A stretch of DNA of 64,000 bases, taken from the NCBI GenBank assembly GCA_028687545.1, contig JAQTZZ010000009.1, positions 1 to 64,000 of the forward strand, read 5' to 3'. Below are positions 6,838-30,113 of this stretch, in pieces. This DNA is from Candidatus Wallbacteria bacterium (lineage in GTDB: Bacteria; Muiribacteriota; JAQTZZ01). How positions within the stretch are numbered: the stretch's first letter is position 1; the number at the start of each line of letters is the position of its first letter. Both the position numbers and the translations under genes were made by a program. Below the pieces are notes generated by a model, which was not told the DNA's origin, did not search any database, and worked only from the letters and a program-made list of their open reading frames with translations.

Positions 6838-7946
6838 CGATTGAATGTAATCAGGCTGAGAACCATTTCTGCGGCAGCAGTCAGCTCGCTGATCTTGATC
6901 TGTTCTTTTTTGGTATGAACGTTTTCCATCCCCACCGCCAGATTGACGGCCTGGACGCCTCTGGAATTGAAAACATTAGTATCTGAGCCTCCGCCAGTGC
7001 TTTCCAGGCTGATTGTTTTGCCGATCTGCTTTAGACAGGCTGTCACTACTTTCACGATTTCATGATTTGGACCCAGTTTAAACGCTCCAAACTCTTTCTT
7101 AACCATGATTTTAACTTTAGCACCTGTGATTCTGGCTGCTTCCTTGATGCTTTTCACCATCTGCTCAGTCTGTTTTCGGAGCTTATCCTCATTCCGGCTC
7201 CTGGCCTCTCCAAAAATAGTGGTTTTTTCCGGCACGATGTTAGTGGCCATCCCGCCTTCAATTTTTCCAATATTGGCGGTTGTTTCTTTATCAATTCGCC
7301 CGAGTTTCATACGGGAGATCGCCTTGGATGCTGCTGCAATGCTGTTGATCCCGTCTTCAGGGTTGACGCCGGCATGAGCAGCTTTTCCGATGAATTCCGC
7401 GTTCACGGAATTCTGCGAAGGTGCGCTCACCACAACCCGACCGACCGCGCCCTCGCTGTCTAGGATGAAAAAATACTCAGCCTTGATCGATTTCAGATTG
7501 AGCTGTTTTGCTCCATACAGACCCTGTTCTTCACCAATCGTCATGATGAAATAAACAGGTCCATGCGAAATTTTTTGCTCTGACAAGATCCGGGCAGCTT
7601 CGATCATGGCCGCAATTCCAGCTTTATCGTCAGCTCCCAGAATTGTATTTCCATCGCTTTTAATCAGACCTTTTTCAATTCTGGGAGAAATGTGTTCCCC
7701 GGGAACAACCGTGTCCATGTGCGCCACTATCGCCACTCCCTTTTTTTTTCGGTCTCCCTTTTTGTAGGCAATCAAATTCCCTGTTTCCCCTCCATAGGGT
7801 TTATGGGCATTATCGAATTTTACCTCAAAACCCAGTTTTCTTAGTTGGGCAGCGGCGAATTCAGCTACTTTTTTTTCCTTCAGGCTCAAGCTGTCGATTT
7901 TCACGAGTTCCATGAAATTCTTCACCAGTCGCTCACGATTTACCAT
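6834..7946 (-). CDS. M20 family metallopeptidase (PepT-like)
   Basis: This 370-residue cytosolic zinc peptidase of the M20 family is closest to the tripeptidase/PepT-like branch. Metal and catalytic motifs are visible in order: HMDTV (His and catalytic Asp), LGADDKAG (bridging Asp), IGEEQGLYG (general-base Glu and ligand), LDSEG, and a late ENVHTKKE His. The lid/dimerisation domain sits between. The gene is last in the leftward lipid A operon and its start overlaps the lpxB end by 14 bases. It overlaps the DnaE-like gene end by 4 bases convergently. No link to lipid A synthesis is obvious. Confidence 0.85.
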   Translation of the reverse strand: MVNRERLVKNFMELVKIDSLSLKEKKVAEFAAAQLRKLGFEVKFDNAHKPYGGETGNLIAYKKGDRKKKGVAIVAHMDTVVPGEHISPRIEKGLIKSDGNTILGADDKAGIAAMIEAARILSEQKISHGPVYFIMTIGEEQGLYGAKQLNLKSIKAEYFFILDSEGAVGRVVVSAPSQNSVNAEFIGKAAHAGVNPEDGINSIAAASKAISRMKLGRIDKETTANIGKIEGGMATNIVPEKTTIFGEARSRNEDKLRKQTEQMVKSIKEAARITGAKVKIMVKKEFGAFKLGPNHEIVKVVTACLKQIGKTISLESTGGGSDTNVFNSRGVQAVNLAVGMENVHTKKEQIKISELTAAAEMVLSLITFNR

Positions 7947-9117
7947 CGTTCCTCCTCAAAAAATCGATGATCAGACGGGCAGCACGCTCAGTTGCACCTG
8001 CTTCTCCCATTTTTTTCAGCACATCCTTCAAATAATTCTTCTGCTGCTCGATCCTTTCCTGATTACGGTAAAAATTTACCACCTCAGAAGCGATTTTCTC
8101 GGGATTGGCGTCTCTCTGCGCGAATTCCGGGATCACCTGCCTGCCCAGAATTAGATTCGGGAGTCCGAAAATTATTGGCAGTTTTCCTGACAGGCGCGCA
8201 ATCAGCTCAGTCAGAAGCGAGATTTTATAGATAATGATCATCGGAATATTCATGCAGGCGGCCTCAAGAGTCGCTGTGCCGGAAGCAATTACGGCGAAAT
8301 CCAGAGTGGAAAACACATTATATGTCGCATCAACTGTAAGCTGTGCTTCGGGAAAGTTCTGCCTGATATAACCCTCAATCTTTTCCTGGTTCATATCTTC
8401 TGAAGTTTTAAAAGTGGCTGAAGTGATGGGAATAATGAACTTTGCGTTCGGGATTGAACTTTTAATCAGCCTGGCCGCCTTCAGAAGTACGGGTAAAAGA
8501 TATTTGACCTCTTTTTCCCTGGATCCAGGCAGCAGCCCGATGGTGAAATTCTCTGGAGTGATCCCGAATTCACGTTTCAGCTGATCCTTAGGCTTAGTAG
8601 ATTTGACGATGTCCAGCAGCGGATGGCCGACATACGAAACGTCAGCTCCAGCCTGCCGGTATAAATCGTAGGTCGTTTCAAAAGTAGTAATGATCAAGTC
8701 GATGGATTCTGCCGCATCCCGGATTTGATCGGGAGTTTTGGCCCACTTGGAAGGCGGAATATAATAAATTGTCTTGACTCCTCGTTTCCGCGCAGCATGC
8801 ACAAGGCGCATGTTGAATCCAGGATAATCGATCAGAAGCAGAAGATCCGGTTTATTCCTGATCAGAAACTGTTTGATTTTCTTATAAACCCTGTAAAGTC
8901 CTGGCAGTTTCTTCAGCGACTCCACCATGCCGATCACTCCCCAGCTGGAGCTGTCAAAGAACAGTTTTCCGGTTTCCTGCTCCATTTTCTGGCTGCCGAT
9001 GCAAACAAAATCAAGGGTCTGGTCAAACTCTTTCAAGGTATGGATCAGAGCGGCACCATACAGGTCACCTGAAATCTCGCCAGCCACGATCATCAGATTT
9101 TTTTTCTTGTCAAGCAT
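7933..9117 (-). CDS. lpxB: Lipid-A-disaccharide synthase
   Basis: LpxB (GT19) condenses UDP-2,3-diacylglucosamine with lipid X to form the lipid A disaccharide at the inner membrane. This 394-residue copy has the canonical N-terminal motif AGEISGDLYGA, the central LLPGSREKEV motif and a C-terminal acceptor region ending in the usual helix-rich tail, at normal family length. The start ATG overlaps the end of the upstream msbA-like gene by 8 bases. A second, divergent LpxB-like gene lies two genes upstream in the same operon, so this copy is the better candidate for the standard enzyme. Confidence 0.92.
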   Translation of the reverse strand: MLDKKKNLMIVAGEISGDLYGAALIHTLKEFDQTLDFVCIGSQKMEQETGKLFFDSSSWGVIGMVESLKKLPGLYRVYKKIKQFLIRNKPDLLLLIDYPGFNMRLVHAARKRGVKTIYYIPPSKWAKTPDQIRDAAESIDLIITTFETTYDLYRQAGADVSYVGHPLLDIVKSTKPKDQLKREFGITPENFTIGLLPGSREKEVKYLLPVLLKAARLIKSSIPNAKFIIPITSATFKTSEDMNQEKIEGYIRQNFPEAQLTVDATYNVFSTLDFAVIASGTATLEAACMNIPMIIIYKISLLTELIARLSGKLPIIFGLPNLILGRQVIPEFAQRDANPEKIASEVVNFYRNQERIEQQKNYLKDVLKKMGEAGATERAARLIIDFLRRNDGKS

Positions 9118-10861
9118 TTCCTATCACCGTTTCCGGGGATGCAAATGCATGCTGCGTCTGATACAGATTGTAGTAAATTCCCTTCTGCTGCATCAGAGTT
9201 GCATGAGAGCCCTCCTCGGCAATTTTCCCTTCATCAATCACTAAGATCCTGTCAGCATTAATCACAGTGGAAAGCCGGTGGGCGATCACAAAAGTGGTCC
9301 GGCCTTTGGTAAGTCTTTCCAGGGCTTCCTGAATCAGCTTCTCAGATTCGCAATCCAGAGAAGAGGTGGCTTCGTCCAGCAGCAGGATTCCAGGGGATTT
9401 CAAGATCAGCCTCGCAATCGCAATCCTCTGCCGTTGTCCGCCGGAGAGGTTAGTCCCTCTCTCGCTGATTTCTGTATAATATCCATTGGGAAGTTGCATG
9501 ATGAAATCATGTGCATTGGCTGCCTTCGCGACTTCGGTCACTTTCTCCATTCCGGACTGGGTTCCCATCAGAATATTCTCTAAAATTGTACCCTTGAAAA
9601 TGAAGGTTTCCTGGGGAACCATCCCGATGATCGAACGCAGGCAGGGGAGAGAAAAACAGCTGATGTCGGTTCCGTCGATCATGATACTTCCCCGGTCGAT
9701 CTTGAAAAATCTCGGAATCAGGTTGATGATGGTGGTCTTGCCCGCACCTGATCGTCCCACCAGGGCGATCACTTCGCCTGGTCTGGCCGTAAAACTGATT
9801 CCTCTAAGGACTTCTTTCCCGGTTTCATATGAAAAAAATACATCCTTGAACTCCAGCCTTCCCTGAATACTGAATTGGTTGATCTCCCCGTCAATCACTT
9901 CACGCTCTGCGATGGCGTCCAGATACTCATAGATCCTCCTGGCTGCTCCATCCGCCTGCTGCAGGTAGTTATTGACAGTTGTCAGCCGTTTCATGGGCGT
10001 GAATAGAATGCCGAGTGCCGCCAGAAATGAAAAAAGATCCCCCTTGGTCATCACGCCATTCAGTACCAGCCATCCCCCATACATCATCACAGAACTGATC
10101 GCCAGAGTGTTGAAGAGCTCCACAACGGGCAGCACCATCGCCACCAGCCTGTTGTTCTTCAGATTGATCACAAACGAGTCATCGTTGATCCTTGAAAAGC
10201 CTTCGACTCTCTCTTTTTCCATCAGAAATGCCTTGATCTCTTTGACTGCAGAGAAGGATTCCTGAAGATGAGCAGTGATGTCTCCGATCTTATCCTGCTG
10301 CTGATAGGAGAGACGACGGATCTTTTTTGAAAACTTTGTGATCACATAGACGATCGGTGGCAGTACAATCAATGAAACCAGGGCCAGCCTGAAATTTACA
10401 TAAAAAATGTAGCCGATCAGAAAGACAATCGTAACACTGTCGCTGACAACGGAAACAAGCGACTGGATGATTCCCTGCAGAAGCAGTGCATCGCTCGTAA
10501 ATCTCGACATTACCTGCCCCAGAGGATGTTTGTAGTAGAATCCAAGTGAATAGTTGATCAACTGCTGAAAAATGTCCTGCCGCAGATCCTTGATCATGCC
10601 GTTACTGACATATGAAGCATAATAAATCTGCCCGAAATAGAAAACACCCTTCACCAGCATGCTGGTGAATATGAAAAGCGCGAAAGGCAGCAGAAACTTG
10701 CGTCCTTTTTCTGAAGCCAGCACGTCGTCCACCAGCAGTTTGAGGAAATATGCCGGGGCGGCGTTACCGGCGGCTACCACCATCGCCATCAGGGAGGAAG
10801 CCACCGCTTTGCCAAGATATGGTCTGCCGTAACGGATCAAACGCCTGACATAGACGCTCAT
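9110..10861 (-). CDS. msbA: MsbA-type lipid A/lipid ABC exporter
   Basis: This 583-residue half-transporter has six membrane segments (about residues 15-310) followed by an ATPase domain. The ATPase carries Walker A GRSGAGKTT, signature LSGGQRQRIAIAR, Walker B ILLLDEATS and the H-loop IAHRLST. Length and order match MsbA/ABCB lipid flippases. Position between two lpxB-like genes supports flipping of lipid A precursor across the inner membrane. The gene shares an ATGA overlap with the upstream lpxB-like gene. The symbol rests on context; other ABCB exporters look alike by sequence. Confidence 0.85.
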   Translation of the reverse strand: MSVYVRRLIRYGRPYLGKAVASSLMAMVVAAGNAAPAYFLKLLVDDVLASEKGRKFLLPFALFIFTSMLVKGVFYFGQIYYASYVSNGMIKDLRQDIFQQLINYSLGFYYKHPLGQVMSRFTSDALLLQGIIQSLVSVVSDSVTIVFLIGYIFYVNFRLALVSLIVLPPIVYVITKFSKKIRRLSYQQQDKIGDITAHLQESFSAVKEIKAFLMEKERVEGFSRINDDSFVINLKNNRLVAMVLPVVELFNTLAISSVMMYGGWLVLNGVMTKGDLFSFLAALGILFTPMKRLTTVNNYLQQADGAARRIYEYLDAIAEREVIDGEINQFSIQGRLEFKDVFFSYETGKEVLRGISFTARPGEVIALVGRSGAGKTTIINLIPRFFKIDRGSIMIDGTDISCFSLPCLRSIIGMVPQETFIFKGTILENILMGTQSGMEKVTEVAKAANAHDFIMQLPNGYYTEISERGTNLSGGQRQRIAIARLILKSPGILLLDEATSSLDCESEKLIQEALERLTKGRTTFVIAHRLSTVINADRILVIDEGKIAEEGSHATLMQQKGIYYNLYQTQHAFASPETVIGNA

Positions 10862-11925
10862 GCCGAAACCTCGTTGATTTTATCGGCAATCCGGCGATAA
10901 ATATCGGGACCCGCAAGACTCTGCCAGAGTTTCCTGCAGTCGCCGCTGATCTCATCTTGTTCAGGCAGTTCCAGTAATGTCTGCCGCAGATAGTCAGGTC
11001 GAAAATCTTCCTGAATCAGTTCAGGATAGATTTCTTTCCCGGCCAGGATATTGGGAAGTGAGTAATGACTGAGAATCACTTTCCGCTTAAAATAAAGATA
11101 ACTCAGCCAGCTGGTCCGATAAACAACCACTGTCGGCACTTCAAAATAGGAAAGTTCAAGCACCACGGTCCCGGAACAGGCAATCGCACGATCCAGGCTG
11201 GACATCCATTCATACTTTTCGGCTGGAGGAATTAAATTGACAGGCAATTTGAATCCGGAAACTATTTTCCGGATGCGATTCTTGAAGGCAGGGGAGTCAT
11301 CGGCTAGAAACATGCAGCATTCCCCGTTGCTGCCTTCAAGTGATTTCAACATTACAGGCAGAGTTCCTTCAATTTCTGCGGGACGGCTGCCTGGAAAGAT
11401 CCCGATTCTACCCCTGACATGTTTTTTCAGTGGAATTTTCTGTAATTCTTCGCTCAGTGGGTGCCCAAAATAAAAAGAATTGACACCAAGATTCAACAGC
11501 TGTTCATGTTCAAATGGGAAAAGTGGAAAAACCAGACTGCATTTTTTCAACCGTTCTGCACGTTCCGGACACCAGGCCCAGAATTTTGGCGGAATAAAAT
11601 AAACTGTGCTCTTTCCTGACTTTGAAGCCTGATCGAGCAGGCGCAGATTTAAACCGGAAAAATCTATCAGCAACAAAATATCCGCCTCATCGATGCCTTT
11701 TTTAAGTCTACTCCAGACATTGAAGAAAAAAGGGATCCTTCCGATCAGGTCTGTCAAGCCCATCATCGAAGCGCGTTCAATCGTGTCCCGGATCTTGGGG
11801 ACCAGGATCTTCATTTCAGGTCCTCCATACCCGGAAAAGCTGAAACCACCCCTGAGAAAAGGAATCAGGCGTGCAGCGTAATAATCCGCTGATTTTTCAA
11901 AAACACTAAACAGGATCTTCCGCAC
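10858..11925 (-). CDS. Second, divergent LpxB-like glycosyltransferase
   Basis: This 355-residue protein is related to LpxB along its length: it keeps IPPKFWAW, the FPGSRPAEIEGTLP motif, the SGTVVLELSYFEVPTVVVYRT acceptor/donor region and the IYPELIQEDF tail. Its N-terminus differs: the AGExSGD motif near the start is replaced by FEKSADYYAARL, and it is about 40 residues shorter than LpxB. It may use another acceptor or donor, act with LpxB, or be non-catalytic. The start overlaps the lpxI end by 20 bases and the stop overlaps msbA by 4. Confidence 0.8.
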   Translation of the reverse strand: MRKILFSVFEKSADYYAARLIPFLRGGFSFSGYGGPEMKILVPKIRDTIERASMMGLTDLIGRIPFFFNVWSRLKKGIDEADILLLIDFSGLNLRLLDQASKSGKSTVYFIPPKFWAWCPERAERLKKCSLVFPLFPFEHEQLLNLGVNSFYFGHPLSEELQKIPLKKHVRGRIGIFPGSRPAEIEGTLPVMLKSLEGSNGECCMFLADDSPAFKNRIRKIVSGFKLPVNLIPPAEKYEWMSSLDRAIACSGTVVLELSYFEVPTVVVYRTSWLSYLYFKRKVILSHYSLPNILAGKEIYPELIQEDFRPDYLRQTLLELPEQDEISGDCRKLWQSLAGPDIYRRIADKINEVSA

Positions 11926-14778: not shown

Positions 14779-15237
14779 ATGAAAATTCAGATCCTGGCAG
14801 TTGGAAGCGTAAAATCCGGAGAGATCAGATCTCTGATTTTCGAATATCTTAAACGGCTCAAACCATATCAGGATGTCCAGATCACTGAATTGAAAGAGGG
14901 AATTCCAAGAAAGGGAAGTTCGGCTAAAAAAGAGGATGAAGAAAAAATCCTCAGCCATCTGAAAGGCAGACCTGCGCTGATCGCTCTTTCAGAAGAAGGA
15001 AAGGCGGTCGGGAGCCTCGATCTGGCGTTACTTATCAAGAGGCATTCGGAAGCAGGGACAGACATCTGTTTTATTATTGGAGGTACAGAGGGCCTTTCTG
15101 ATACAATCAAAAAGAGTGCCCTTTTCTGCCTGAGCCTTTCAGATCTGACCTTTACCAGGGAAATGGCCAGGCTGATACTGGTAGAGCAACTGTACAGGGC
15201 CGTAAAAATAAACCGCGGGGAGCCATACCATCGCTAA
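14779..15237 (+). CDS. rlmH: 23S rRNA (pseudouridine-1915 N3)-methyltransferase
   Basis: RlmH is a small SPOUT methyltransferase that modifies pseudouridine 1915 in helix 69 of 23S rRNA on the assembled ribosome. The 152-residue length is standard. The SAM-binding trefoil-knot motifs are clear: FIIGGTEGLSD, LSLSDLTFTREMARLILVEQ and the C-terminal GEPYHR, whose penultimate His and terminal basic residue are family hallmarks. The frame of the next gene is open back through the rlmH end, so the two are probably coupled. Confidence 0.95.
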   Translation: MKIQILAVGSVKSGEIRSLIFEYLKRLKPYQDVQITELKEGIPRKGSSAKKEDEEKILSHLKGRPALIALSEEGKAVGSLDLALLIKRHSEAGTDICFIIGGTEGLSDTIKKSALFCLSLSDLTFTREMARLILVEQLYRAVKINRGEPYHR

Positions 15238-15280: not shown

Positions 15281-16006
15281 ATGGGATTTCTCAATCACGA
15301 TCCAGAGCTTGAGAAAAACGGACAGCTGTCTTTTTCCACTCTGTCCCTTTTCAGGCTGCTCGAGCTTCTGACACAGGAAGGCAACTCTCTGGACGGGTTG
15401 AAAAATGTAATTTCCAACTGGGTCGACTATCGTTCCAGACTCCATGAACCCGGCGGACAGCGGAAACAACTTGTCTTTTTCCCCGCAGCTTTTATCTCCC
15501 TTTTTCTTTATTATCGTAATTTTCCTCTGCTTCTTTCTACTTTTGGCCGCCTGCTCGATTGTTTCGCAGAGGAAGGAATCAGTGAGGAGGATGTAAGAAA
15601 TTACTATTCTCTCTGCCTGGCCGCCTACAAGACCCGTTCAATCTCCCTGGAATTTGACGAAGAAGCCTTTCTTTTCTATCTTTTGAACAATGAATCGGCA
15701 AATTCAGAAGCTGTTCAGGAAAAAAAAGACCCCTCTTTTATCAGCAGTTACCTGTCAAGCGGAACAACAGCAGAAAAACTTTCCGCATCCCAGCAGACTA
15801 TCCTGAACTTACTCTCTCATTTCAAGCATCAGGCTCAGAATCCTTCGGAACTTCCGGAGCGGTTATGGTCCGGGTTTCTGGAAGGCATCTTTTCCCATCA
15901 GTCGCTTACTGTCAAACCCGAAGCTGAACTCGAGGAATTCATCGTCGAAACAGTCGACAATTTCTGGTGTCTGATCAACGAGGGGGGCAATGATTTATCT
16001 CTTTAA
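15281..16006 (+). CDS. Unknown protein upstream of the TPR/DinG-like gene
   Basis: This 241-residue protein is not recognised. It is predominantly helical and acidic, with hydrophobic blocks around residues 65-100 (FFPAAFISLFLYYRNFPLLL) that could be a buried core rather than a membrane segment. The reading frame is open upstream to inside rlmH (..VEISYQDYRSSL before the ATG), with no good ATG, GTG or TTG and a GGGGAG near 15217. A non-canonical start around 15230 is therefore possible. The last 17 bases overlap the next gene, so the two products are probably made together and may interact. Confidence 0.65.
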   Translation: MGFLNHDPELEKNGQLSFSTLSLFRLLELLTQEGNSLDGLKNVISNWVDYRSRLHEPGGQRKQLVFFPAAFISLFLYYRNFPLLLSTFGRLLDCFAEEGISEEDVRNYYSLCLAAYKTRSISLEFDEEAFLFYLLNNESANSEAVQEKKDPSFISSYLSSGTTAEKLSASQQTILNLLSHFKHQAQNPSELPERLWSGFLEGIFSHQSLTVKPEAELEEFIVETVDNFWCLINEGGNDLSL

Positions 16007-19000
16007 GCTTTTTGACCTGCTCTTCTCGACCAACCTTTATTTTTTCGTCAGAATCGAGGAAATCTCCGATCTTGTATCAGAACACAACTTCGAACTGGCG
16101 GAAAAAATGCTCCTCCAGCTGCAGGAAGACCTTAAGCAGCTTCAGTATCCACAAGATTTTCTGGCTGAACTCTATTTCTATTTATCCGAACTTTATTTCA
16201 AGTGGAACAAGCCTCAGAATTCTCTGGATTATTGTCTTGCCGCTTTGAAGATTTCCGGCAGTGACGAGCATCTTTACAGAATCGGCTGGATCTATCTGAA
16301 CTCTTTCCGCAACACTGAGAAAACCCTTGAATATCTCGAGCGCTGTCTGGAAACAAATCCCCATCATTATCCATCTTTGAAACTGTTAGGCGAAGTTTAT
16401 CATGAGCTTCAGAATCTGGATCAGGCTGAAAAATATCTGCGACTGTCTCTGCCTCTGAAAAAAGAGGCAGGCAGCTATCTCAGGATTGGAGAAATCCTGC
16501 TGGTCAAAGAAAATTACAAGGAAGCCTTCAAGTTTCTGCGCATTTCCCACAAGCTCAAGCCGGACAACCCTGAAGTCAATTACTATATTGGCTGCACTTT
16601 CCTGCGGGCGAACAATCATAACAAAGCTCTGCATTATTTCAGGCAGGCCACTTATTACGACGATCAATACATTCCTGCTTACTTCGAAATTGCCAGGATT
16701 CATCAACTGATTTTCTCCGAGACGGATAAAGCAATCATCGCCTACAACAAAATCCTGGAACTGATGCCTGAGAACGAGGAAGCCCTGTACCAGCTGGCGC
16801 AAATTTTCTGCCGCAGCAAGAAGAACTATCATAAAGCCCTGTTTTTACTTTTCAAGCTGTTGAAAAAAGACCCTTCTCACAGCCAGTCCCTGCTGCTGAT
16901 GTCCGAAATTTACGAACAATGTTACAATTATTCACTCGCCTTGAAATATCTGGGGCAGCTGGAGATCGAATCCGCGGAAATCAAATCCAGGATCGCTGAG
17001 ATCCAATTCCGTCTCTGCAATTGGCAGAGGGCTGAAGAACTCTATATTGAACTCTATCAGAAAGGCTTGATCGAATTTGAGAACAAGATCAAGAAAATCG
17101 TGCTCTTTCCACATACCAGGATCGCCACTTTTCTGGCTTTCAAAAAAGAGCAGGACAGTCTCAATATATACGCAGTAAAACGCAACGGTCCTTTCCAGAT
17201 CGATACGCTCATGCTGAGACTCTTGAAAACCGCTCCCACCGAAGACATTTTCTATACTTTTGAACCCTTCGACTTCAGCCTTGAAGAAGGATTCCTGATT
17301 CTTTCCCGCTGGCTCAGTTCCCCGGTGCTGACCTTTGGCCAGGACTTCTCAGAACTGTCCGACCTTTGCAGGGAAGCCCAGCTTGAACTTCCACTCAAAG
17401 GCAGCCGCCTCGACGATTTCTTGTACTCTATCTATGGAAAAGATGATTTCAAGGAACTGGAAACTGCAGCCCTCAAGAAAAAGGTCAAGACTATGATCGA
17501 TCTTTTCCAGGGCTCACTCAAAAAAATCCGGGATTCACACCTGCTCGTCAGTCTGTTCTCCAAACTGCCTGAACTTTCCCCACTGGCACATCTCCCTCAG
17601 GTCGTTTTCAAGCCCAATTTTCTAGCTGAACTCCTGACACTTCCCGCTGAAGAGACTTCCCGCCCTGTAGAAACCGCACTGATACCTCAAGAACTGACGG
17701 CCTTTCTGAATCAGCCGAATTTTGAAGGATCCTGGCGGGTGCTGGCTGTTCCTCTGGAACAGAATCTTGCTGTTGTTTCCCTGCTCAAGGAACAGGCTGA
17801 ACGGAAAAAAGTAATGTTTGCAGTAATTGCCAAGGACAGGGGTGAATTTCACCAGGCTTATCACCTGCTCAGCCGTGCTTTTACTGCTGAGACCCTTGGT
17901 TTTTCAATCGAGCCGGACAATTTTCTCTGCCTCTCAAGGCTTTCTGAGTTGATCAAGAACAATGCCTATCCGACAGAACTTTTCTATCTCATCTGCTGGT
18001 ATAGAACAGCCGTCCCAAGACTCTTCCCTTTCATTCCAGAGCAGGCTTTCAAGTATTACCCCCAGCTCTCAAGGGTTCTCCTGCTTCTGTCTGCCACTGA
18101 GCGCGACCATGAAAACTGTCAATTTTCCTCGCACTGTGAGTATTACCAGAATCTGCTGGCGCTGAAAAATAAGAAAATCGTACTGTTTTCACTTCAATCC
18201 TATCACCGGGAAATCGTCAAGCCTTCCCTGATACCCGGATGCAGTGCTCTGATTTCCTTCAATTTTGCTGCTTTCCCCAAGATCTCATTTCTCAGGTCAA
18301 GCTTTGCCCTCCTGAAGATGGAAGCCAACCTGCTTTACTGGCATCAGGCTCTATTTGCAAAGGGTGAAGAGGCGATCAAATTCGGAGAGGAAAAAATCCT
18401 CAAAATTAAGGAAAATCTCCTGGAAGTCAAACGGATTCTGAATTCCATCCACAATCACTATTTTCTGCCTGAAGAGTACCTCGATCTGGATTCTCTGAAG
18501 GTCAAATTTCCATTTTTGTATTTTTCTCTCCTGGATGCCCTGCTGCCCCTTCTTTCCTCGCTCAAGGAATTCGGAGAATTCCTTTTCTGCACCCAGATCA
18601 TCCGTGAGCAGGAAGACGAAATCATCAGCCTGATCGATTCTCTCAACGATTTCCTCTATAAAAACGCCTACCGGAGTCTGCGCCTTTCTAAAAATATCGA
18701 AGAAACCGAATTTCTCAACCTGCTGGAAATCAATTATCATCAGATCGGGTCAAGCTTCAACAATTTAATCTTCGTGGAAAATCATCTCACCTGCCAGCAA
18801 CTCAAAGCACTGGAAAAACAGTGTCCGGGTAAAAAACTCTCCATTTACGATGCAGGGGTTCCAAGAGCAGAACTGCCACCAGCCATGGATTGGGAAACCG
18901 TGGAATTTTTCGAACCGGAAATTAAATACCTTTTCCGCAATCGTCTGACGCATTTCTGGGTGGATTTTTATAAATTTCACCTTCAGGCATTGTTTTCAGC

Positions 19001-20714
19001 GGGAACTTCTGTCCCCGGTCTGGACACCCTGAGTTTCATCCTTAAGAAAAAATTGAAGTATCACTATCAGATTTCCAGGGAAAACCTCGATCATGTCGTG
19101 GACAATCTTTTTTACCATACAGACAATCATGGTTTTTATGAATTTCTGTCCCTTGCCCTGTCTGAAACCGAGAAAACCATCCCGCTCACTTTCAAACAAT
19201 ATTCATTTCTGATAGCAACCTCCACCATTATTTCAAGGATCGAAGGAAAACGTGTTTTGATTCTGGCCGACGGTCTGCTTGGGGAAGCGATCCGCAATGT
19301 CCTGAAATGGCTGTATTACGTCGAAGTCGTTTCGTTTTTCCAGGGAACCGGGTACGAGGATTTTCTGAAATCACTTGAATGCATCAAAGACAGCATCCCA
19401 AGAATCATCGTGCTTGATTTTCCTCATTTTTTCGAACCAAAAGTGCGACAGGCACTGGACCGCCTGAAAGTAGACTACCGGTTCTCCCTGACCTATAATT
19501 TGCCTGAATTCAAGTGTTTCCTTCCTCAGGAGGCTGTCGAATTCACCTACGTCAAACTCAACTTTTCACTGCACCAGGAACTATCTCCCCTGTCCGAACT
19601 TAAGGATGGCAACGTACTCGACCTTAAGAATCTGACCATCACCCCTCAACTTCCTCTAGTGGAAAATCTCAGGCTGCTTGGTCTGCCTTTTGACATGAGT
19701 GAACTGGGCTTTTATCTTTCATCAGCGTCTTCCCTGGAAATATGCAGCACACCGGAGGACTGGGAAAACTTCCAGAACGGGGTTGAGTCATTGGATAATA
19801 TGCACTCTATCGATAAAATCAACCAGATGCTGCATGTTTTCCGTGGAAGAAACATGGTCATCAGCAGAAGGCTGCTCTCCAAAATCGTGAAGAACACACC
19901 ATTCTGGCGCGACTGTGAATCATTCATCAATTACCTAATCCAGGAAGGTGTTGTGGGGCAGGTCGTCTATCATCCGCCCTATCAAAAATTCCACTTGAAG
20001 CAGACTCTTAACACGCTTGTGATTGACCTCAACAACCCCTGCCTGGATTTAAAATCAGATGAACTGCTTTCCAACCAGACCATCCTCTTCCAGATCAGGA
20101 GTGGATTCGAACAGTCAAGAAAGAAGTGGCTTGAAGATTTCATGGCCGAAATTAAACTGCTCGAATTTCTGAACAGAGACCATGAACTGGCCTTCAAAAG
20201 GAAAAAATGCTATCAGCTTTCCTCCCTCCAGGCTGAGCTTTCGCTGCCGGCAGATCTGATCGAAAAAGTACTCCTCTGCCTGACGTCACTGGGATTTTTG
20301 TCTTATGCCCGGAAAAGCGAGGAAATCATGCTGGAAATCACAGCCAATATCTCACTGGTTATCAAATTCTGGCTCACTCAGAAAGAAATTAAAACTTTGC
20401 TGCTCGACAAATTCGTCAAAAGCCACGAAAACGACGACAGCCTGGACCTGCTGACTTTCTTCCGCTTCCTGCATCAGAAATTCGGAATCTCTGAACTGAT
20501 TCTTGAGGAATCGGTACTGGATCTGCAATGTCTGGAACTGGTGGAAGCTTCATTCGAGCAACCCTTCCTGGCTGACGGCTATACCCTGGAAATCCTAAAG
20601 GATCATCTCACGGTTCAGTCCCTGGAAAACATTCATCAGCAGCGCGTTAAACTTTGCAAGCTCCTGAAAAACAAGCTCAAGGAAGGGAAAAACAAGATTA
20701 CATTTACACCATGA
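15990..20714 (+). CDS. Giant TPR protein fused to a degenerate DinG-like exonuclease-helicase
   Basis: The 1574-residue protein opens with about ten TPR units (residues 20-360). Residues 370-515 align by eye to a DEDDh exonuclease (IYAVKRNGPFQIDT like IGAVKV; VLTFGQDFSEL like LVAHNAAFDL; TAALKKKVKTMIDLF like HRALADARATAELF), but all acidic ligands are lost (Ser454, Thr492 and others). Residues 560-790 follow DinG helicase. The P-loop position reads AVPLEQNLA, NFLCL keeps Cys647, and CQFSSHCEYY keeps Cys710 and Cys716 of the iron-sulphur motif. The DEAH box position reads ISFNFAAF. Residues near 1085-1175 resemble helicase domain 2 (KRVLILADGLLGEAI); the C-terminus looks winged-helix-like. It is predicted to be a non-catalytic scaffold; the assignment is inferred from motif order. 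Confidence 0.65.
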   Translation: MIYLFKLFDLLFSTNLYFFVRIEEISDLVSEHNFELAEKMLLQLQEDLKQLQYPQDFLAELYFYLSELYFKWNKPQNSLDYCLAALKISGSDEHLYRIGWIYLNSFRNTEKTLEYLERCLETNPHHYPSLKLLGEVYHELQNLDQAEKYLRLSLPLKKEAGSYLRIGEILLVKENYKEAFKFLRISHKLKPDNPEVNYYIGCTFLRANNHNKALHYFRQATYYDDQYIPAYFEIARIHQLIFSETDKAIIAYNKILELMPENEEALYQLAQIFCRSKKNYHKALFLLFKLLKKDPSHSQSLLLMSEIYEQCYNYSLALKYLGQLEIESAEIKSRIAEIQFRLCNWQRAEELYIELYQKGLIEFENKIKKIVLFPHTRIATFLAFKKEQDSLNIYAVKRNGPFQIDTLMLRLLKTAPTEDIFYTFEPFDFSLEEGFLILSRWLSSPVLTFGQDFSELSDLCREAQLELPLKGSRLDDFLYSIYGKDDFKELETAALKKKVKTMIDLFQGSLKKIRDSHLLVSLFSKLPELSPLAHLPQVVFKPNFLAELLTLPAEETSRPVETALIPQELTAFLNQPNFEGSWRVLAVPLEQNLAVVSLLKEQAERKKVMFAVIAKDRGEFHQAYHLLSRAFTAETLGFSIEPDNFLCLSRLSELIKNNAYPTELFYLICWYRTAVPRLFPFIPEQAFKYYPQLSRVLLLLSATERDHENCQFSSHCEYYQNLLALKNKKIVLFSLQSYHREIVKPSLIPGCSALISFNFAAFPKISFLRSSFALLKMEANLLYWHQALFAKGEEAIKFGEEKILKIKENLLEVKRILNSIHNHYFLPEEYLDLDSLKVKFPFLYFSLLDALLPLLSSLKEFGEFLFCTQIIREQEDEIISLIDSLNDFLYKNAYRSLRLSKNIEETEFLNLLEINYHQIGSSFNNLIFVENHLTCQQLKALEKQCPGKKLSIYDAGVPRAELPPAMDWETVEFFEPEIKYLFRNRLTHFWVDFYKFHLQALFSAGTSVPGLDTLSFILKKKLKYHYQISRENLDHVVDNLFYHTDNHGFYEFLSLALSETEKTIPLTFKQYSFLIATSTIISRIEGKRVLILADGLLGEAIRNVLKWLYYVEVVSFFQGTGYEDFLKSLECIKDSIPRIIVLDFPHFFEPKVRQALDRLKVDYRFSLTYNLPEFKCFLPQEAVEFTYVKLNFSLHQELSPLSELKDGNVLDLKNLTITPQLPLVENLRLLGLPFDMSELGFYLSSASSLEICSTPEDWENFQNGVESLDNMHSIDKINQMLHVFRGRNMVISRRLLSKIVKNTPFWRDCESFINYLIQEGVVGQVVYHPPYQKFHLKQTLNTLVIDLNNPCLDLKSDELLSNQTILFQIRSGFEQSRKKWLEDFMAEIKLLEFLNRDHELAFKRKKCYQLSSLQAELSLPADLIEKVLLCLTSLGFLSYARKSEEIMLEITANISLVIKFWLTQKEIKTLLLDKFVKSHENDDSLDLLTFFRFLHQKFGISELILEESVLDLQCLELVEASFEQPFLADGYTLEILKDHLTVQSLENIHQQRVKLCKLLKNKLKEGKNKITFTP

Positions 20715-21886
20715 AATACCTGGATTATCAGTTCGACAGAATACAATTCAATGGCCTTGATCTGTCTTCCCGGCTGGCAGGGATTCCAACCCCATCTTTT
20801 CTATATTTCCCCGAGAGATTCAAGGACAACCTGAGGCAGATCGACCAAAATCTGTCGAAATTAAAGATCCAGGCCTTTTATGCTTACAAAGCAAATTATT
20901 ACCAAAGTCTGATTCCTGAAATTATCAGAACCGGAAGCGGTGTTGAAGTGATGAGCGGCCAGGAACTGAACTCTGTCCTTAAACTGGGTTTCAATGCCTC
21001 TCGAATCATTTTCAACGGTGTCGGGCGAAGCAGTTCCGCCTTGGAACAGGCGATCAGACTGGGTGTAGACGCCATTGTCGCCGACAATCCAGCCGAGCTT
21101 GACCTGATCGCTGGAATCAGCAAAAAACTTTCCCGGGAAACATCCGTTTTCTTTCGTTTCTATCCTTTCTGGGAAAGCAAAATCATTCCCAGAAGCTTTA
21201 TTCCAAAATTTTACAAGCTTGGAATCCAGGACCAGGACGAACTTGCAGCGATGCTTAGCATAATCGGAAAAAATCCTCTGCTGAAGTTGAGAGGCCTGAG
21301 TTTTCACATCGCGGTAAAGGCTCTGACTTCCAGTCTGCATTATGAATCACTGATTCTGATTTATCAGACGTTCCTGGAATTGAAGAAACAGCAGCCCTTT
21401 CTTGACACCATTTCCATCGGCGGCGGTTTCGAATCCAGATACCTGCTGGAGCGTCAGGGGATGGACATAACCACGCTTCTGAAACCGGTCTCTGAGTTTA
21501 TCAGAGGCAAATCTGAAATCAGACGTCTGATCATCGAACCAGGCCGATATCTTGTCAATGATTGCTTCCTTGGACTGGCTTCTGTCCTGAATGTGAAAAA
21601 AAACTTCCCCGGCATCTGGTATCTGCTGGATCTGGGGACTAACGTGCTTGTCCCCCGCCCCAATGCCTATTTCGAGATCTACCCGCTCCGCTGGAAAAAA
21701 GGCCCGCTTTATACCTCATCTTTCGGAGACGGACTCTGCTCGTCCAACAGTGTCATCGCCAGAAATCTATATCTTCCAGAACTTCAGTCCGGTGATCAAG
21801 TGCTGATCGCCAATTGCGGTGCCTATACCATGAATCAGGGCTCCAATTTCGGCTATCCTTTGCCTGAGATCCAGGAAATATGCTGA
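20711..21886 (+). CDS. Group IV PLP-dependent decarboxylase (DAP/ornithine/arginine decarboxylase family)
   Basis: This 391-residue fold-type III decarboxylase resembles LysA and related amino-acid decarboxylases. Lys60 in FYAYKANYY is the PLP Schiff-base lysine. The phosphate-binding IEPGRYLV and GGGF motifs are present, and Cys343 in FGDGLCSSNS aligns with the catalytic Cys of the opposite subunit. ANCGAYTMNQGSNFGY matches the C-terminal barrel. Two deviations stand out: SFHIAVKAL replaces the usual HIGSQ loop and CSSNS replaces CESxD, so the substrate may not be diaminopimelate. The ATG at 20711 is used; upstream sequence overlaps the preceding gene by 4 bases only from this start. Confidence 0.82.
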   Translation: MKYLDYQFDRIQFNGLDLSSRLAGIPTPSFLYFPERFKDNLRQIDQNLSKLKIQAFYAYKANYYQSLIPEIIRTGSGVEVMSGQELNSVLKLGFNASRIIFNGVGRSSSALEQAIRLGVDAIVADNPAELDLIAGISKKLSRETSVFFRFYPFWESKIIPRSFIPKFYKLGIQDQDELAAMLSIIGKNPLLKLRGLSFHIAVKALTSSLHYESLILIYQTFLELKKQQPFLDTISIGGGFESRYLLERQGMDITTLLKPVSEFIRGKSEIRRLIIEPGRYLVNDCFLGLASVLNVKKNFPGIWYLLDLGTNVLVPRPNAYFEIYPLRWKKGPLYTSSFGDGLCSSNSVIARNLYLPELQSGDQVLIANCGAYTMNQGSNFGYPLPEIQEIC

Positions 21887-24971: not shown

Positions 24972-25325
24972 TCAGGAGTTGCCGAGCGCCACGCTTTTTT
25001 TGCTGAAAATCTTGTTGATGACCTGATATTTGTCCAGAATTTTCCTCAGGTCAGGCGTTTTCTCCAGAGTCTCCACTCCCAGCAACAGCGACTGCATCTC
25101 ATCCTTTGAATCAGGAAAGATCTGATCCAGGTTGATCAGGCAGTAATTCCATTCGCTTTTTTCCTTGAGCGAAATCTCAAGTTTCCCGGGCAGCCTCTGG
25201 CTGTAGAAAACGTAGAAATTCGAGTAAAAATACCCGGCCGCAATAGCCACTGCAAACAGGAAGAAAATGGTTTTCCAGCTTCCTGAAGAGTCGTGTGTCT
25301 TAGGTTTTACCCTTGATGATGCCAT
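24972..25325 (-). CDS. Small single-pass membrane protein after the Ig-repeat genes
   Basis: This 117-residue protein has a basic N-terminus, one membrane segment (about residues 19-40, TIFFLFAVAIAAGYFYSNFYVF) and a helical C-terminal domain (LLGVETLEKTPDLRKILDKY). The start is ATG at 25325, preceded by GAGGAT. It overlaps the end of the 761-residue Ig-repeat gene by 26 bases and is last in that operon. It is not recognised as a known family; it may be an accessory factor for the Ig-repeat proteins. Confidence 0.7.
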   Translation of the reverse strand: MASSRVKPKTHDSSGSWKTIFFLFAVAIAAGYFYSNFYVFYSQRLPGKLEISLKEKSEWNYCLINLDQIFPDSKDEMQSLLLGVETLEKTPDLRKILDKYQVINKIFSKKSVALGNS

Positions 25326-27585
25326 TGTCCATATCCTCCCTCATTCTGTCTACAGGTATGCCCTTCGCTTTCAGCTCTGATTCGAATTTTTTAACATTGC
25401 AGCCCATGGTTGTAAGCTCCCTGTCGAATTCGATCACAGCCTGCTCAAGCAGCAGCAGCTTGGCGATCCCCTTTTTGCTGTTGTACAGGTATGCATGATC
25501 GGTTTCATTGTACTGTGTAATGACTTTATTGATGATCATGGTCAGTTCGTATCGCGAAGGCTTGAGAAAATCGTCCCTGGCTTTGATCTCATAATCAGGA
25601 ACAAAGATCTTCTGCAGGCGTTCCACCAGATATCTTGCCCATTCATCCCTGGTGAAATTCTGCCTCACAGTATCATTGGTGTAGAAATCTGTATCCTCAA
25701 GATCTCTGGGGGGTTTTGGCTCATCCTTGGGTACTATCACTTGCGGACTATCGCGTTTCAGGCTGATTTCGATATCCGAATCCAGAGAATCCCCTGTGAT
25801 GAACTTGAGCCTTGTTTCCTGAAGCGGGTTTCCGGATTTATCATGGATTCCGGATTTCAGGATCACCTTGACTTCTTTCTGGGGAAGGAAAGTGGACTTA
25901 GGAGTCAGGGTCAGTTTTTTGAACTCATAATCATAGATGATGGAGAATTCAAAAACGTCCTTATCCTGGGAAATACCGATGTTTTCAGGAGTCAGTGATT
26001 TCTCGTCGAGTTCCTTGTTGAAGATGAAACAGATCCTGCTGTCCAGTGCCACTCCCTTGAAATTGTCCTGTGGAAAAACATCCAGTATTCTTACTGGTTC
26101 AGTATCCCTGGGCTGCTCCTTCTCAATGATTTCTTCGGCAGGCGCAATCAGAGGGACGCCAGTAATATCTGAAATCACTGAATCCAGTTTTTTATCGTCT
26201 TCCATCATCGGATTCCTGACCAGGTCCTGGGCTGTTTCTTCATTGATTTTTACCGTCACAAAGCCGCTGTTGAATCCATTGGCCAGATGATTCCCGGCCA
26301 GGTCGGCGATATCAGCTTTTACGGTAAGCCTGTAATGCGTGTTGGAATGCAGCCGGTCGAGCGGTTTGAAAGAAACCACTTTCATTGACTCATCCATGCT
26401 GATTTCACCGGTGACGATCTGTTCGCCGTCTGTCAGTCCAATCCCCTGTCTGATTGTGGAAACAGCCACCGGCTCAGTAAATGTGAGCGTAATCACTGCT
26501 CCCAGCGGAACATCGGAAGCTTCGTCCTTGGGAAGGTATTCCACAACTTCGGGGGGGACCGTGTCCGGGAGCTGCCCTGTGGAAAAATGAATCTTCAGGG
26601 GTTTCATGACATTACCGGACAGGTCTTTGAAATTTTTGAGATTCAGAAAATAATCCGTGCCCTCTTTCAACGGATGTTCCGGAATGCCTCTGATTTCCGC
26701 TATCACAGGATTGTAGGACAATTTGCAGCCGATCACTTCATCGCTGTTCTCGATGATGATATTTTCAGCCATCAATGAATCTTCACTGACTATTTCAGAT
26801 ACCTTCAGGAGCACTTCCATAGTGGTCGGAAGATTGGTTTCTTCATTTCTGGGAAGCGTAGCAAGCATTTCCGGAGGCTTCTTGTCGGGTTCTATTTCCG
26901 TAGTGAATTCCAGGCTGCAGTCCTGGGTCAAATGATTACCCGATAAATCTGTGACAGATTTACGAATTTCCAGGTGGTAGGTAGTTTCATATTCCAGCCT
27001 TCCTAAAACTTTGATCGACAGAAGACACTGCTTGGGAAAATAGTCGTATTTCAATTTCACGGGTTTCTTACCGCCAAGCAGCTTCACAGATGAAGCCAGT
27101 GATTCCGGCCGCAGGGGTTTGGAAAAAGTGACTTTCAGCTCTGTATTGGCGCTTACACTCTTGGCCCCCTGTTCAGGACTGCAACTCATGATCTGGGGGA
27201 TGACCAGGTCTTTCTTCTTTCCTGTATCAAAAGGCAGGATAAAATCCAGGGTAAGCCTCTCCCCATCCGCTGAGGTAACGCCGGAAAACACTTTGAATAT
27301 GTATTCCTCTCCCTTTTCCAGCCCTCCGTTGGGGCGGAACATCAGCCGTTTCAATTCCGGAATGTAGCTGGCTTTCCCAGGCAGTTCATAAGCAGAGTTG
27401 GAGAGAGAGACCGTGAATTCATTCACGCTGATCGGATCAAGATCCTGATTGAACTCCACATAGATCTGGCTGTCCATCGGGATGTCAGACTGGCCTTTCT
27501 TGGGAACTGAGTTTACGATCTGAAGTTCAGCTGAAGCCGCAAAACCCAGTAAAAGCAGTAAAATAAGAGCTATCCTATTCCACAT
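25300..27585 (-). CDS. Secreted protein with five SbsA-type Ig-like domains and a helical C-terminal domain
   Basis: The start at 27585 (MWNRIALILLLLLGFAASA, signal peptide) is chosen because AAGGTGG lies 6 bases upstream; an earlier ATG at 27612 would put nine polar residues in front. The protein is 761 residues. Five bacterial Ig-like domains (Big_5/SbsA type) are marked by repeated openings such as PEVVEYLPKDEASDVPL and endings such as DLSGN. The C-terminal 130 residues differ. They are helical and contain PSRYELTMIINKVI, which resembles the TRYE-type helix of S-layer-homology domains, so wall attachment is conceivable. It overlaps the upstream gene by 11 bases. Confidence 0.82.
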   Translation of the reverse strand: MWNRIALILLLLLGFAASAELQIVNSVPKKGQSDIPMDSQIYVEFNQDLDPISVNEFTVSLSNSAYELPGKASYIPELKRLMFRPNGGLEKGEEYIFKVFSGVTSADGERLTLDFILPFDTGKKKDLVIPQIMSCSPEQGAKSVSANTELKVTFSKPLRPESLASSVKLLGGKKPVKLKYDYFPKQCLLSIKVLGRLEYETTYHLEIRKSVTDLSGNHLTQDCSLEFTTEIEPDKKPPEMLATLPRNEETNLPTTMEVLLKVSEIVSEDSLMAENIIIENSDEVIGCKLSYNPVIAEIRGIPEHPLKEGTDYFLNLKNFKDLSGNVMKPLKIHFSTGQLPDTVPPEVVEYLPKDEASDVPLGAVITLTFTEPVAVSTIRQGIGLTDGEQIVTGEISMDESMKVVSFKPLDRLHSNTHYRLTVKADIADLAGNHLANGFNSGFVTVKINEETAQDLVRNPMMEDDKKLDSVISDITGVPLIAPAEEIIEKEQPRDTEPVRILDVFPQDNFKGVALDSRICFIFNKELDEKSLTPENIGISQDKDVFEFSIIYDYEFKKLTLTPKSTFLPQKEVKVILKSGIHDKSGNPLQETRLKFITGDSLDSDIEISLKRDSPQVIVPKDEPKPPRDLEDTDFYTNDTVRQNFTRDEWARYLVERLQKIFVPDYEIKARDDFLKPSRYELTMIINKVITQYNETDHAYLYNSKKGIAKLLLLEQAVIEFDRELTTMGCNVKKFESELKAKGIPVDRMREDMDNGIIKGKT

Positions 27586-30112
27586 CAAATTCCACCTTGT
27601 ATTCGTGTTCAAGCTTTCTGCCCAGTTTGTCCTGGATTCCAGGATTAATCACAAGTGTAAAATGCTTTCCTGACTCCAGTTTATTATTCGGATAAAAATA
27701 GGCTTTCCTTACAGACGGCTGATACTCGATCCGGCCTGACACTGATTTTCCCTGGTCATTCAATAGTTTCACTGTGAAAACATTCAGCGAAACCGGATTG
27801 ATGTCATTGGAAAAATCAATGTAGATGGACTCATCAGGTTTCACCTTTCCGCCTGTGAGGGGATAAATGTTGAAAATCGTCAGCTTGCTGTCCCGCTCAG
27901 CAATTTCAAAATTACAGTCATTCTGAATCACAGCCTGATTTCCTGCTTCATCGCAGACTGGAAAATTGCATTTCAGTAAATACTTCCCGCAGGGGAGATC
28001 GGATTGCAGCTTGTAGATCAAACGATTGGACTGATTAGAGTACTCCAGTCTGCCGGGAATATAATCTCCGGCTTCGTTTTTCAGGTTGAAATTGAAAGGC
28101 GTGATTTGTTCAGTGCGTACCCGCTCTGAAAATGTAAACGAGATCACCGGCTTCGCCTGGCGGATCACTGAGCCATCGGCTGGACTTATAGCGAGGAGGG
28201 CCGGCGCAGTCTTGTCCGGAGGGTCTCCGACCAGGAATCTCGTCTTGACCGGTTCGGCCAGCTCATTTCCCGCCTTATCCCGCACAGCTGTGGTAAGGGC
28301 GAAAACATACCATTCCCCGGAGGTCAACTCTCGGACAGGCTTGAAGTAAATTTCATTCTTTTCGCTGCTGTATGAAATATTCCCCGGCAGATTGAATTTT
28401 CCGTCATTTAGAATCACGGTAAATGAATTCAATGTTTTCTGATCCAGCGGCTCATTGAATGAAGCGCTGAGAACCGGCTTGCTCCCAACCCTGATCTGTC
28501 CGTTTGGGGGGTAAATGTTCAGAATGGACGGAGGGGTTACATCAGGCGGAACCTGCGTCATGAAGGCGTAGCGATAGATACTGGCGAGTTGATTGCCTAC
28601 CCTGTCCCGAACTCCGCTCATGATCACCACCCAGTATTCCTGGCTGTATTCAAGTGGTTCGTCAGGAGTAAACTTTACATCCCAATCGGTTTCGTCATAC
28701 AGGATCTTGGCTGAAACCGGTTCTTCCTTCAAAAGCAGCAGAAAGTTGAAGCCATTGACTGTTTCGGGGTTGAGCGGCTTGTTGAAGCGGAAATGAAGGG
28801 AGCTGTCGACAGGAACGCCTACCGCCCTGGGTGTGGGGTATGATCCCAGCAGTCTCGGCACAGAATAAGCATCGGCTGGCACTACTTTGTTCCTGGACTT
28901 CTCGGCCTTTTCTTCTTCGATTCTGTCAATTGCCTGAAATTCCTGATTGGCATTTACTTCATGAGTTTCTCTGATCACAGGTGCACTCACGAGCTTCAAA
29001 GCAGGAGCTGTCGTAAATGAGAAAGAAAAATCCTGATTCAGGTTGTTCTGACTCTCGCTTTTCAGATTCCGTTTGACCTTGATCAGAATTTCGGAATTCA
29101 GAGGCAGTGTGTTCTCAGCCTGGATGATCAGGCACTTTTTATCTTCTGTCAGAAAATTCTTGGCCCAGATTGGCTTTTCCCCGCTCTTTATCTGCACTGA
29201 GAGCCTGTTGACGGTTTCCGGATTCAACGCTTCGTTGAAAAATATGCTGATCTTGCTGGCTGGATCTATCTCTTTGTCGCCATCGATTGGATATGTTCTG
29301 GTAACTGTAAGCGGACTCTCCACTCCCCGTTCAACAGTCCTGAAGACTGTGACCAGCCCTTTTTCCAGCCCTTCTTTATCCGAACTGGTGATCAGGTTGG
29401 AAATATTGATCATGTAGCTGGTGCTGGGAATAAGCGGCTTCTGGGGAAAAACACTTACCACTCTGTTGCGGTCTGACAGTTCCAGCCGGCTGTCAACCAC
29501 TTCTCCGCTTCCTCTGAGAATCACGGTATACTTATTGACGCTTTCGGAGGCCACAGGCTTATTGAAGCGGATGCTGGCCACCTGGGTGACGCTGATCTCG
29601 TCGCTGCCGTCCCCTGGAGTCACTTCCAGGACTGAAAATGCTTCATAAGTGGATCCTGCAACTGTCTCCGCCGTTTCAACCTGGATTTCTGCGGTAACTT
29701 TTGCTGCGAGGTCTGAGATCATTTTCCCGTAATCCAGGTCCCGTCCGATTGCAAAATACCAGGAATAATCATTTCCCAGCTTTTTACCCATGCAGTCCCG
29801 GATCTCCCCGGAAATTGTTACCCTGTAATTCTGCCCTGGAGACAGTTTGAAATCCGGAATAAACCTGATCTTACGCTCAGCCTTGACATATTCGACCTTG
29901 CCGCGCAGGTCAGCTGACCCGTCGTTCACAGTTACAGTAAACAGGTTCACATCTCCACCCCGAAGATCACGGTCGAGCACAGCATAAATTTCCGCTGCCT
30001 CAATAATGATCGCGCGACTGTCGGGAAACACCTTCAGAATACCGCTCGCATTCTCTGCACAGGCGGCTGCAGAGACCATCAGCATCAAGAAAAACAATTT
30101 CATTTGTTTCAT
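27575..30112 (-). CDS. Secreted protein with seven SbsA-type Ig-like domains
   Basis: The 845-residue protein begins with a signal peptide (MKQMKLFFLMLMVSAAACA, possibly a lipoprotein-like Cys near residue 18). It then has seven Ig-like domains of roughly 100 residues, each with a YP-x-x-G opening, an F-x-x-P/E-LD-x-x-x-V-N core and a D-x-x-GN close. A lysine/glutamate-rich linker near residues 385-415 interrupts the series between the third and fourth domains. It is the middle gene of three homologous genes, with the start one base after the previous stop. It is probably an adhesin, stalk or surface-layer component. Confidence 0.85.
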   Translation of the reverse strand: MKQMKLFFLMLMVSAAACAENASGILKVFPDSRAIIIEAAEIYAVLDRDLRGGDVNLFTVTVNDGSADLRGKVEYVKAERKIRFIPDFKLSPGQNYRVTISGEIRDCMGKKLGNDYSWYFAIGRDLDYGKMISDLAAKVTAEIQVETAETVAGSTYEAFSVLEVTPGDGSDEISVTQVASIRFNKPVASESVNKYTVILRGSGEVVDSRLELSDRNRVVSVFPQKPLIPSTSYMINISNLITSSDKEGLEKGLVTVFRTVERGVESPLTVTRTYPIDGDKEIDPASKISIFFNEALNPETVNRLSVQIKSGEKPIWAKNFLTEDKKCLIIQAENTLPLNSEILIKVKRNLKSESQNNLNQDFSFSFTTAPALKLVSAPVIRETHEVNANQEFQAIDRIEEEKAEKSRNKVVPADAYSVPRLLGSYPTPRAVGVPVDSSLHFRFNKPLNPETVNGFNFLLLLKEEPVSAKILYDETDWDVKFTPDEPLEYSQEYWVVIMSGVRDRVGNQLASIYRYAFMTQVPPDVTPPSILNIYPPNGQIRVGSKPVLSASFNEPLDQKTLNSFTVILNDGKFNLPGNISYSSEKNEIYFKPVRELTSGEWYVFALTTAVRDKAGNELAEPVKTRFLVGDPPDKTAPALLAISPADGSVIRQAKPVISFTFSERVRTEQITPFNFNLKNEAGDYIPGRLEYSNQSNRLIYKLQSDLPCGKYLLKCNFPVCDEAGNQAVIQNDCNFEIAERDSKLTIFNIYPLTGGKVKPDESIYIDFSNDINPVSLNVFTVKLLNDQGKSVSGRIEYQPSVRKAYFYPNNKLESGKHFTLVINPGIQDKLGRKLEHEYKVEFDVE

Positions 30113-30113
30113 C

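Follow-up and report, generated by a model that had tools for sequence, protein, structure and literature searches.

A Conserved Operon in Candidatus Wallbacteria Encodes a Large TPR Protein

The window analyzed here, 64,000 nucleotides of a Candidatus Wallbacteria contig (JAQTZZ010000009.1, positions 1 to 64,000), contains a gene of 1574 codons in a single uninterrupted open frame, preceded by rlmH and a gene for a 241-aa protein and followed by a decarboxylase gene. The features of the locus, in window coordinates, are:

14779..15237, +, rlmH, upstream member of the conserved gene order
15281..16006, +, gene for the 241-aa putative partner protein, of no known family (17-base overlap with the start of the TPR gene)
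15990..20714, +, TPR/pseudo-DinG protein gene, 1574 aa (open reading frame; start codon and operon position kept in a sister genus, L002)
16122..17129, +, TPR array of about 9-10 repeats, residues ~45-380 (Pfam and PDB matches; 52% identity in the relative)
17082..17684, +, segment formerly called a dead DEDDh exonuclease, residues 365-565 (unassigned; no profile support)
17736..17789, +, candidate position of the lost Walker A, residues 583-600, RVLAVPLEQNLAVVSLLK (placed by eye and spacing, weak statistics)
17880..18257, +, DinG-like motor domain 1 / iron-sulfur segment, residues 631-756 (hhalign and Smith-Waterman, above all decoys)
17928..17930, +, Cys647, cluster Cys 1 (EPDNFLC, opposite NYLC of DinG)
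18117..18119, +, Cys710, cluster Cys 3 (preceded by TERDHENC; the second cluster position is not cysteine)
18135..18137, +, Cys716, cluster Cys 4 (6 from Cys710, spacing as in DinG)
18243..18278, +, position of the lost DEAH box, residues 752-763, SALISFNFAAFP vs LIIDEAHNL (follows the hhalign alignment)
18282..19769, +, candidate region for the arch and motor domain 2, residues 765-1260 (anchored alignment)
19752..20711, +, C-terminal region, residues ~1255-1574 (one or more winged helices predicted from AlphaFold and Foldseek, most clearly at ~1405-1450)
20711..21886, +, PLP-dependent decarboxylase of the DAP/ornithine type (overlapping the TPR gene at ATGA)

Among the genomes searched, one relative with the same gene order was recovered, from another Candidatus Wallbacteria genus of the same family (STB_16). 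The gene for its copy of the 241-aa protein (49% identity) overlaps the TPR gene by 17 bases there too, and the position and 4-base overlap of the downstream decarboxylase are repeated as well (L022). The search for homologues in related genomes that the initial annotation had proposed thus yielded a sister-genus relative, but one whose assembly is interrupted after residue 379 and continues from about residue 1343, limiting the comparison to the two ends of the protein; over the C-terminus (residues 1343-1569) the identity is 35%. The missing middle (residues 380-1342) was searched for in the sister genome and not found. No relative of the non-TPR part turned up in 38 further genomes of the phylum, nor, apart from the sister genome, in 382 drawn from across Bacteria; two matches at E values of 0.04-0.05 were at chance level. 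A scan of genome contigs returned the sister genome alone, and a scan of viral sequences returned none.

Between the query and the sister-genus relative, third codon positions had changed most (0.64 vs 0.35 and 0.27). Together with the kept frame, start codon and operon order, this is as expected of a selected coding gene; the open frame is real and seems to be under selection. The neighboring genes (rlmH, the decarboxylase and lipid A genes) point to no firm pathway, and no tie of the operon to DNA repair was found. The 241-aa protein was found only in the two genomes that carry the TPR gene, both of family f1. Further upstream (window 7933-11925, −), an MsbA-type transporter gene lies between two LpxB-like genes, the second of which matched LpxB below the cut-off.

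A TPR Array Precedes a Region Lacking Helicase Motifs

The initial annotation described about ten TPRs followed by a helicase-like segment with neither P-loop nor DEAH box. The repeats were readily confirmed by a match to Pfam TPR_19 (E=2.4e-16) and by the alignment of a designed 8-repeat TPR from the PDB with residues 59-335 (1e-17), and they have the tandem 34-residue form of TPR proteins. The motif losses were confirmed too, as Walker A/P-loop (GxGxGKS/T), DExH/DEAH box and motif VI (QxxGRxxR) are all absent from the whole 1574-aa protein. In the hhalign alignment described below, the DEAH position is occupied by FNFA. The candidate Walker A place, chosen by eye and spacing, lies 64 residues ahead of Cys647, compared with about 62 between Walker A and the first cluster cysteine in ExoDinG. 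Because the defining helicase motifs are missing, the protein is not to be filed as a DinG helicase, and, its ATP-using motifs having been lost, it probably acts as a scaffold for binding and not as an enzyme.

An Iron-Sulfur Segment Resembling DinG

Searches of Pfam, NCBIfam and PDB sequences with the whole protein and with pieces of it returned TPRs as the sole matches and no DinG. We compared the central region with profiles of 42 canonical DinG and ExoDinG proteins, built with and without three helicase-dead ExoDinG sequences from the same phylum (family f4, see below). Query residues 600-760 matched the 42 canonical proteins by hhalign with E=3.6e-4 and a score of 34.7, while the best of 400 decoys of equal length reached 28.3; adding the three helicase-dead rows improved the match to E=6.3e-5. 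The aligned part, residues 631-756, corresponds to the stretch from just before the first cluster cysteine to just before the DEAH box, that is, to the iron-sulfur insert in motor domain 1 by which DinG/XPD proteins are recognized (E=3.6e-4 to 6e-5). Three of the four cluster cysteines are kept, with Cys647, Cys710 and Cys716 in register with positions 1, 3 and 4 and cysteine 2 replaced, which bears out the earlier observation that these residues sit in DinG-like motifs.

A separate home-made profile alignment ranked the iron-sulfur place above 604 decoy windows. In Smith-Waterman comparisons of residues 561-775, the three f4 ExoDinGs came out on top (scores 82, 80 and 61), above the best decoy (55) and the best canonical DinG (50). 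About 4% of shuffles reproduce the cysteine spacing on its own by chance, and the case for DinG is therefore carried by the flanking sequence. Significant similarity to DinG covers only about 125 of the 1574 residues.

Beyond this segment, a DinG profile anchored at the fourth cysteine and running to the end of DinG matched query residues 716-1260 with Z 3.6, exceeded by 0 of 300 shuffles and placed first against 113 decoys; motor domain 2 alone gave a weak signal (Z about 1.7-2.1). The helicase-like segment of the initial annotation thus holds for the iron-sulfur part of motor domain 1 and is weakly supported for motor domain 2. An hhalign match that placed motor domain 2 at residues 1066-1162 (E=0.001) was gone once the template had been rebuilt without empty and odd rows. 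AlphaFold, run without homologues on residues 360-935, gave a poor model (pLDDT 36).

Residues 361-565 Show No DEDDh Signal

The segment between the TPRs and the DinG-like region had been read as a DEDDh exonuclease with its acidic ligands replaced. Three DEDDh profiles, one built from 26 exonucleases and two from ExoDinG sequences including the f4 proteins, matched residues 361-565 no better than shuffles (Z 0.1-0.4), and at best this segment ranked 67 of 586 and 75 of 600 among decoys. The acidic motifs (DxE, HNxxFD, HRxxxDA) are absent. The best local match of the 26-exonuclease profile was misplaced, falling at residues ~990-1075. With scores at shuffle and decoy level, the DEDDh assignment was not upheld; it had been stated that profile searches finding neither DinG nor DEDDh would refute the reading, and of the two a DinG match was found and a DEDDh match was not. 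From its position and neighbors, a worn-out exonuclease at residues 361-565 is conceivable.

A Predicted Winged Helix at the C-Terminus

An AlphaFold model of residues 1045-1574, built from two sequences and mostly of low confidence, reached pLDDT 70-90 around residues 1405-1450. Foldseek searches with this model returned mostly winged-helix proteins (best E 0.004), suggesting that the C-terminus probably holds a winged helix. A sub-threshold Pfam match of the relative's C-terminus to a methyltransferase dimerization domain (E 0.003) is consistent with this prediction. The middle and C-terminal regions are not basic overall, which does not speak for nucleic-acid binding.

Helicase-Dead ExoDinG Proteins in the Same Phylum

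Three genomes of f4, a different family of the phylum, encode an ExoDinG of 943-970 aa directly behind a normal DinG gene (L088:3602-6499, L087:3564-6395, L083). These proteins retain the DEDDh motifs and all four cluster cysteines, while VEIAHKMNRID stands in place of Walker A and DQAH in place of the DEAH box. The tandem of a normal DinG and a helicase-dead ExoDinG with intact nuclease motifs (L088:1296-6499, L087:1728-6395, L083) is possibly a split helicase-nuclease pair.

The f4 proteins are the best match to the query's iron-sulfur segment, and Walker A and DEAH are lost in both. They differ from the query in keeping the exonuclease motifs and four cysteines, in lacking TPRs and a C-terminal extension, and in following an intact DinG gene. 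In the simplest history, an ExoDinG paralogue would have lost its helicase function within the phylum, and in the query's own family (f1) a helicase-dead ExoDinG may then have decayed further and gained the TPRs and the C-terminal extension.

Comparison With Described DinG-Like Proteins

Ten DinG-like subgroups were set out in a 2025 review (PMC11981726). ExoDinG proteins (S. aureus DinG, TIGR01407 type) have in common with the query the motor domain 1 iron-sulfur segment, its cysteines spaced in register, and order and size are comparable between this segment and the far end of the weakly supported motor domain 2. Unlike them, the query lacks Walker A, DEAH, motif VI, a detectable DEDDh domain and one cluster cysteine; it carries TPRs ahead of the DinG-like part and is extended at the C-terminus by a region with a predicted winged helix. 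The S. aureus protein, earlier without observed helicase activity, is now reported to unwind DNA (PMC12345164). The Caulobacter-type pExoDinG, with a dead exonuclease, is a described case of a DinG-like protein with a degenerate exonuclease-like domain. It differs in keeping its helicase/ATPase site and four cysteines, with no TPR reported (PMC11981726); the group is defined by an exonuclease-like fold with two acidic residues and an intact helicase core, and the helicase motifs are absent from the query. The short cyanobacterial sDinG has, like the query, lost its ATP-binding residues, but it has neither an FeS domain nor TPRs (PMC11981726), whereas an FeS-type segment is present here.

TPRs, a lost ATP site and an FeS-type segment occur together in none of these described kinds. 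TPRs were not found in the text of the review, and a literature search for TPR together with DinG found no such protein, in agreement with the initial annotation, which knew of no family with this architecture.

Interpretation

We consider it reasonably probable that the protein is a catalytically dead derivative of a DinG-type iron-sulfur helicase, probably of an ExoDinG paralogue, with TPRs in front and at least one winged helix behind, and that it serves as a binding scaffold; "DinG-derived" is the most that can be said of it. Of the large pseudoenzyme scaffold suggested at the outset, the TPR array, the loss of ATPase motifs and the DinG-like stretch around the cysteines held up, and the dead exonuclease part found no support. 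In such a scaffold the TPRs would hold a partner, the likeliest candidate being the co-translated 241-aa protein, whose gene overlaps from upstream. As their anatomy suggests, the winged helices and the body derived from a helicase could bind nucleic acid or another protein without ATP-driven unwinding, and a cluster or a structural metal may be coordinated by the three cysteines.

A different origin of the central region, as a lineage-specific helical or mixed domain whose cysteines and short motif resemble DinG by chance or convergence, would explain why no family library recognizes it, and is in keeping with the weak evidence outside residues 631-756 and with how often the cysteine spacing arises in shuffles. 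However, the region scores above every decoy and shuffle in several set-ups, and its best matches are specifically helicase-dead DinGs from the same phylum, so that this origin seems rather unlikely. Gene decay, in which a functionless gene is on its way to loss, could account for the lost catalytic motifs and the low C-terminal identity, but it fits poorly with a frame of this length still open, gene overlaps shared by two genera and change concentrated at third codon positions, and we regard it as very improbable.

Within a DinG-derived scaffold, a [4Fe-4S] or other cluster might be kept, making the protein a redox-sensing scaffold. Asp706 and His707 adjoin the lost cysteine position, three of four cysteines are in register, and descriptions exist of DinG-like proteins in which H, S or D takes the place of one of the four cysteines and which may still hold a cluster (PMC11981726). 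However, the stretch with these cysteines falls in the gap of the ortholog assembly, and we treat a kept cluster as doubtful. We are similarly hesitant about residues 365-560 being a dead DEDDh exonuclease and the whole a doubly dead ExoDinG with TPRs, an unlikely but conceivable arrangement. In the nearest relatives, the f4 ExoDinGs, a DEDDh domain occupies the corresponding place, the poor AlphaFold model opens with three strands and a helix, and MAFFT sets the query's first strands on the f4 exonuclease strands with the DFETTG loop deleted, in an alignment that scores as chance. This must be set against scores near those of shuffles, a mid-table rank among decoys, and a length of about 220 residues ahead of the Walker A position, compared with about 286 in ExoDinG. 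The full combination, a TPR-fused ExoDinG with both exonuclease and helicase dead, a surviving iron-sulfur cluster in a structural or redox role, and a scaffold function with the co-translated 241-aa protein, appears quite unlikely.

If the doubly dead reading were true, the phylum would hold a decay series from active DinG through helicase-dead ExoDinG (f4) to doubly dead TPR-ExoDinG (f1). To our knowledge, dead helicases of the XPD/DinG group have barely been studied. A lineage in which intact and half-dead forms stand beside apparently fully dead ones would show the passage of a repair helicase to a scaffold, and whether the iron-sulfur module has a job apart from unwinding.

Other Observations in the Window

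A DnaE-like protein of 947 aa is encoded at 3994-6837 (+), in which the catalytic aspartates are lost: PDIDIDF is replaced by NHGLDFQIN, KxDxLG by KISVTG, and the PGRGSA loop by PLSGKFS. The copy in the sister genome (L164; 35% identity) has lost its catalytic aspartates too, so that the dead state of DnaE is conserved within the family. An intact-looking PolC is also present (G000:C7). This nearby dead DnaE suggests that repurposing of replication enzymes in this Wallbacteria family went beyond a single case. Elsewhere (25300-34448, −), three large proteins are encoded in a row; two are composed for the most part of bacterial Ig-like (Big_5) domains and also contain CopC-like stretches, and the third has a CopC-like match.
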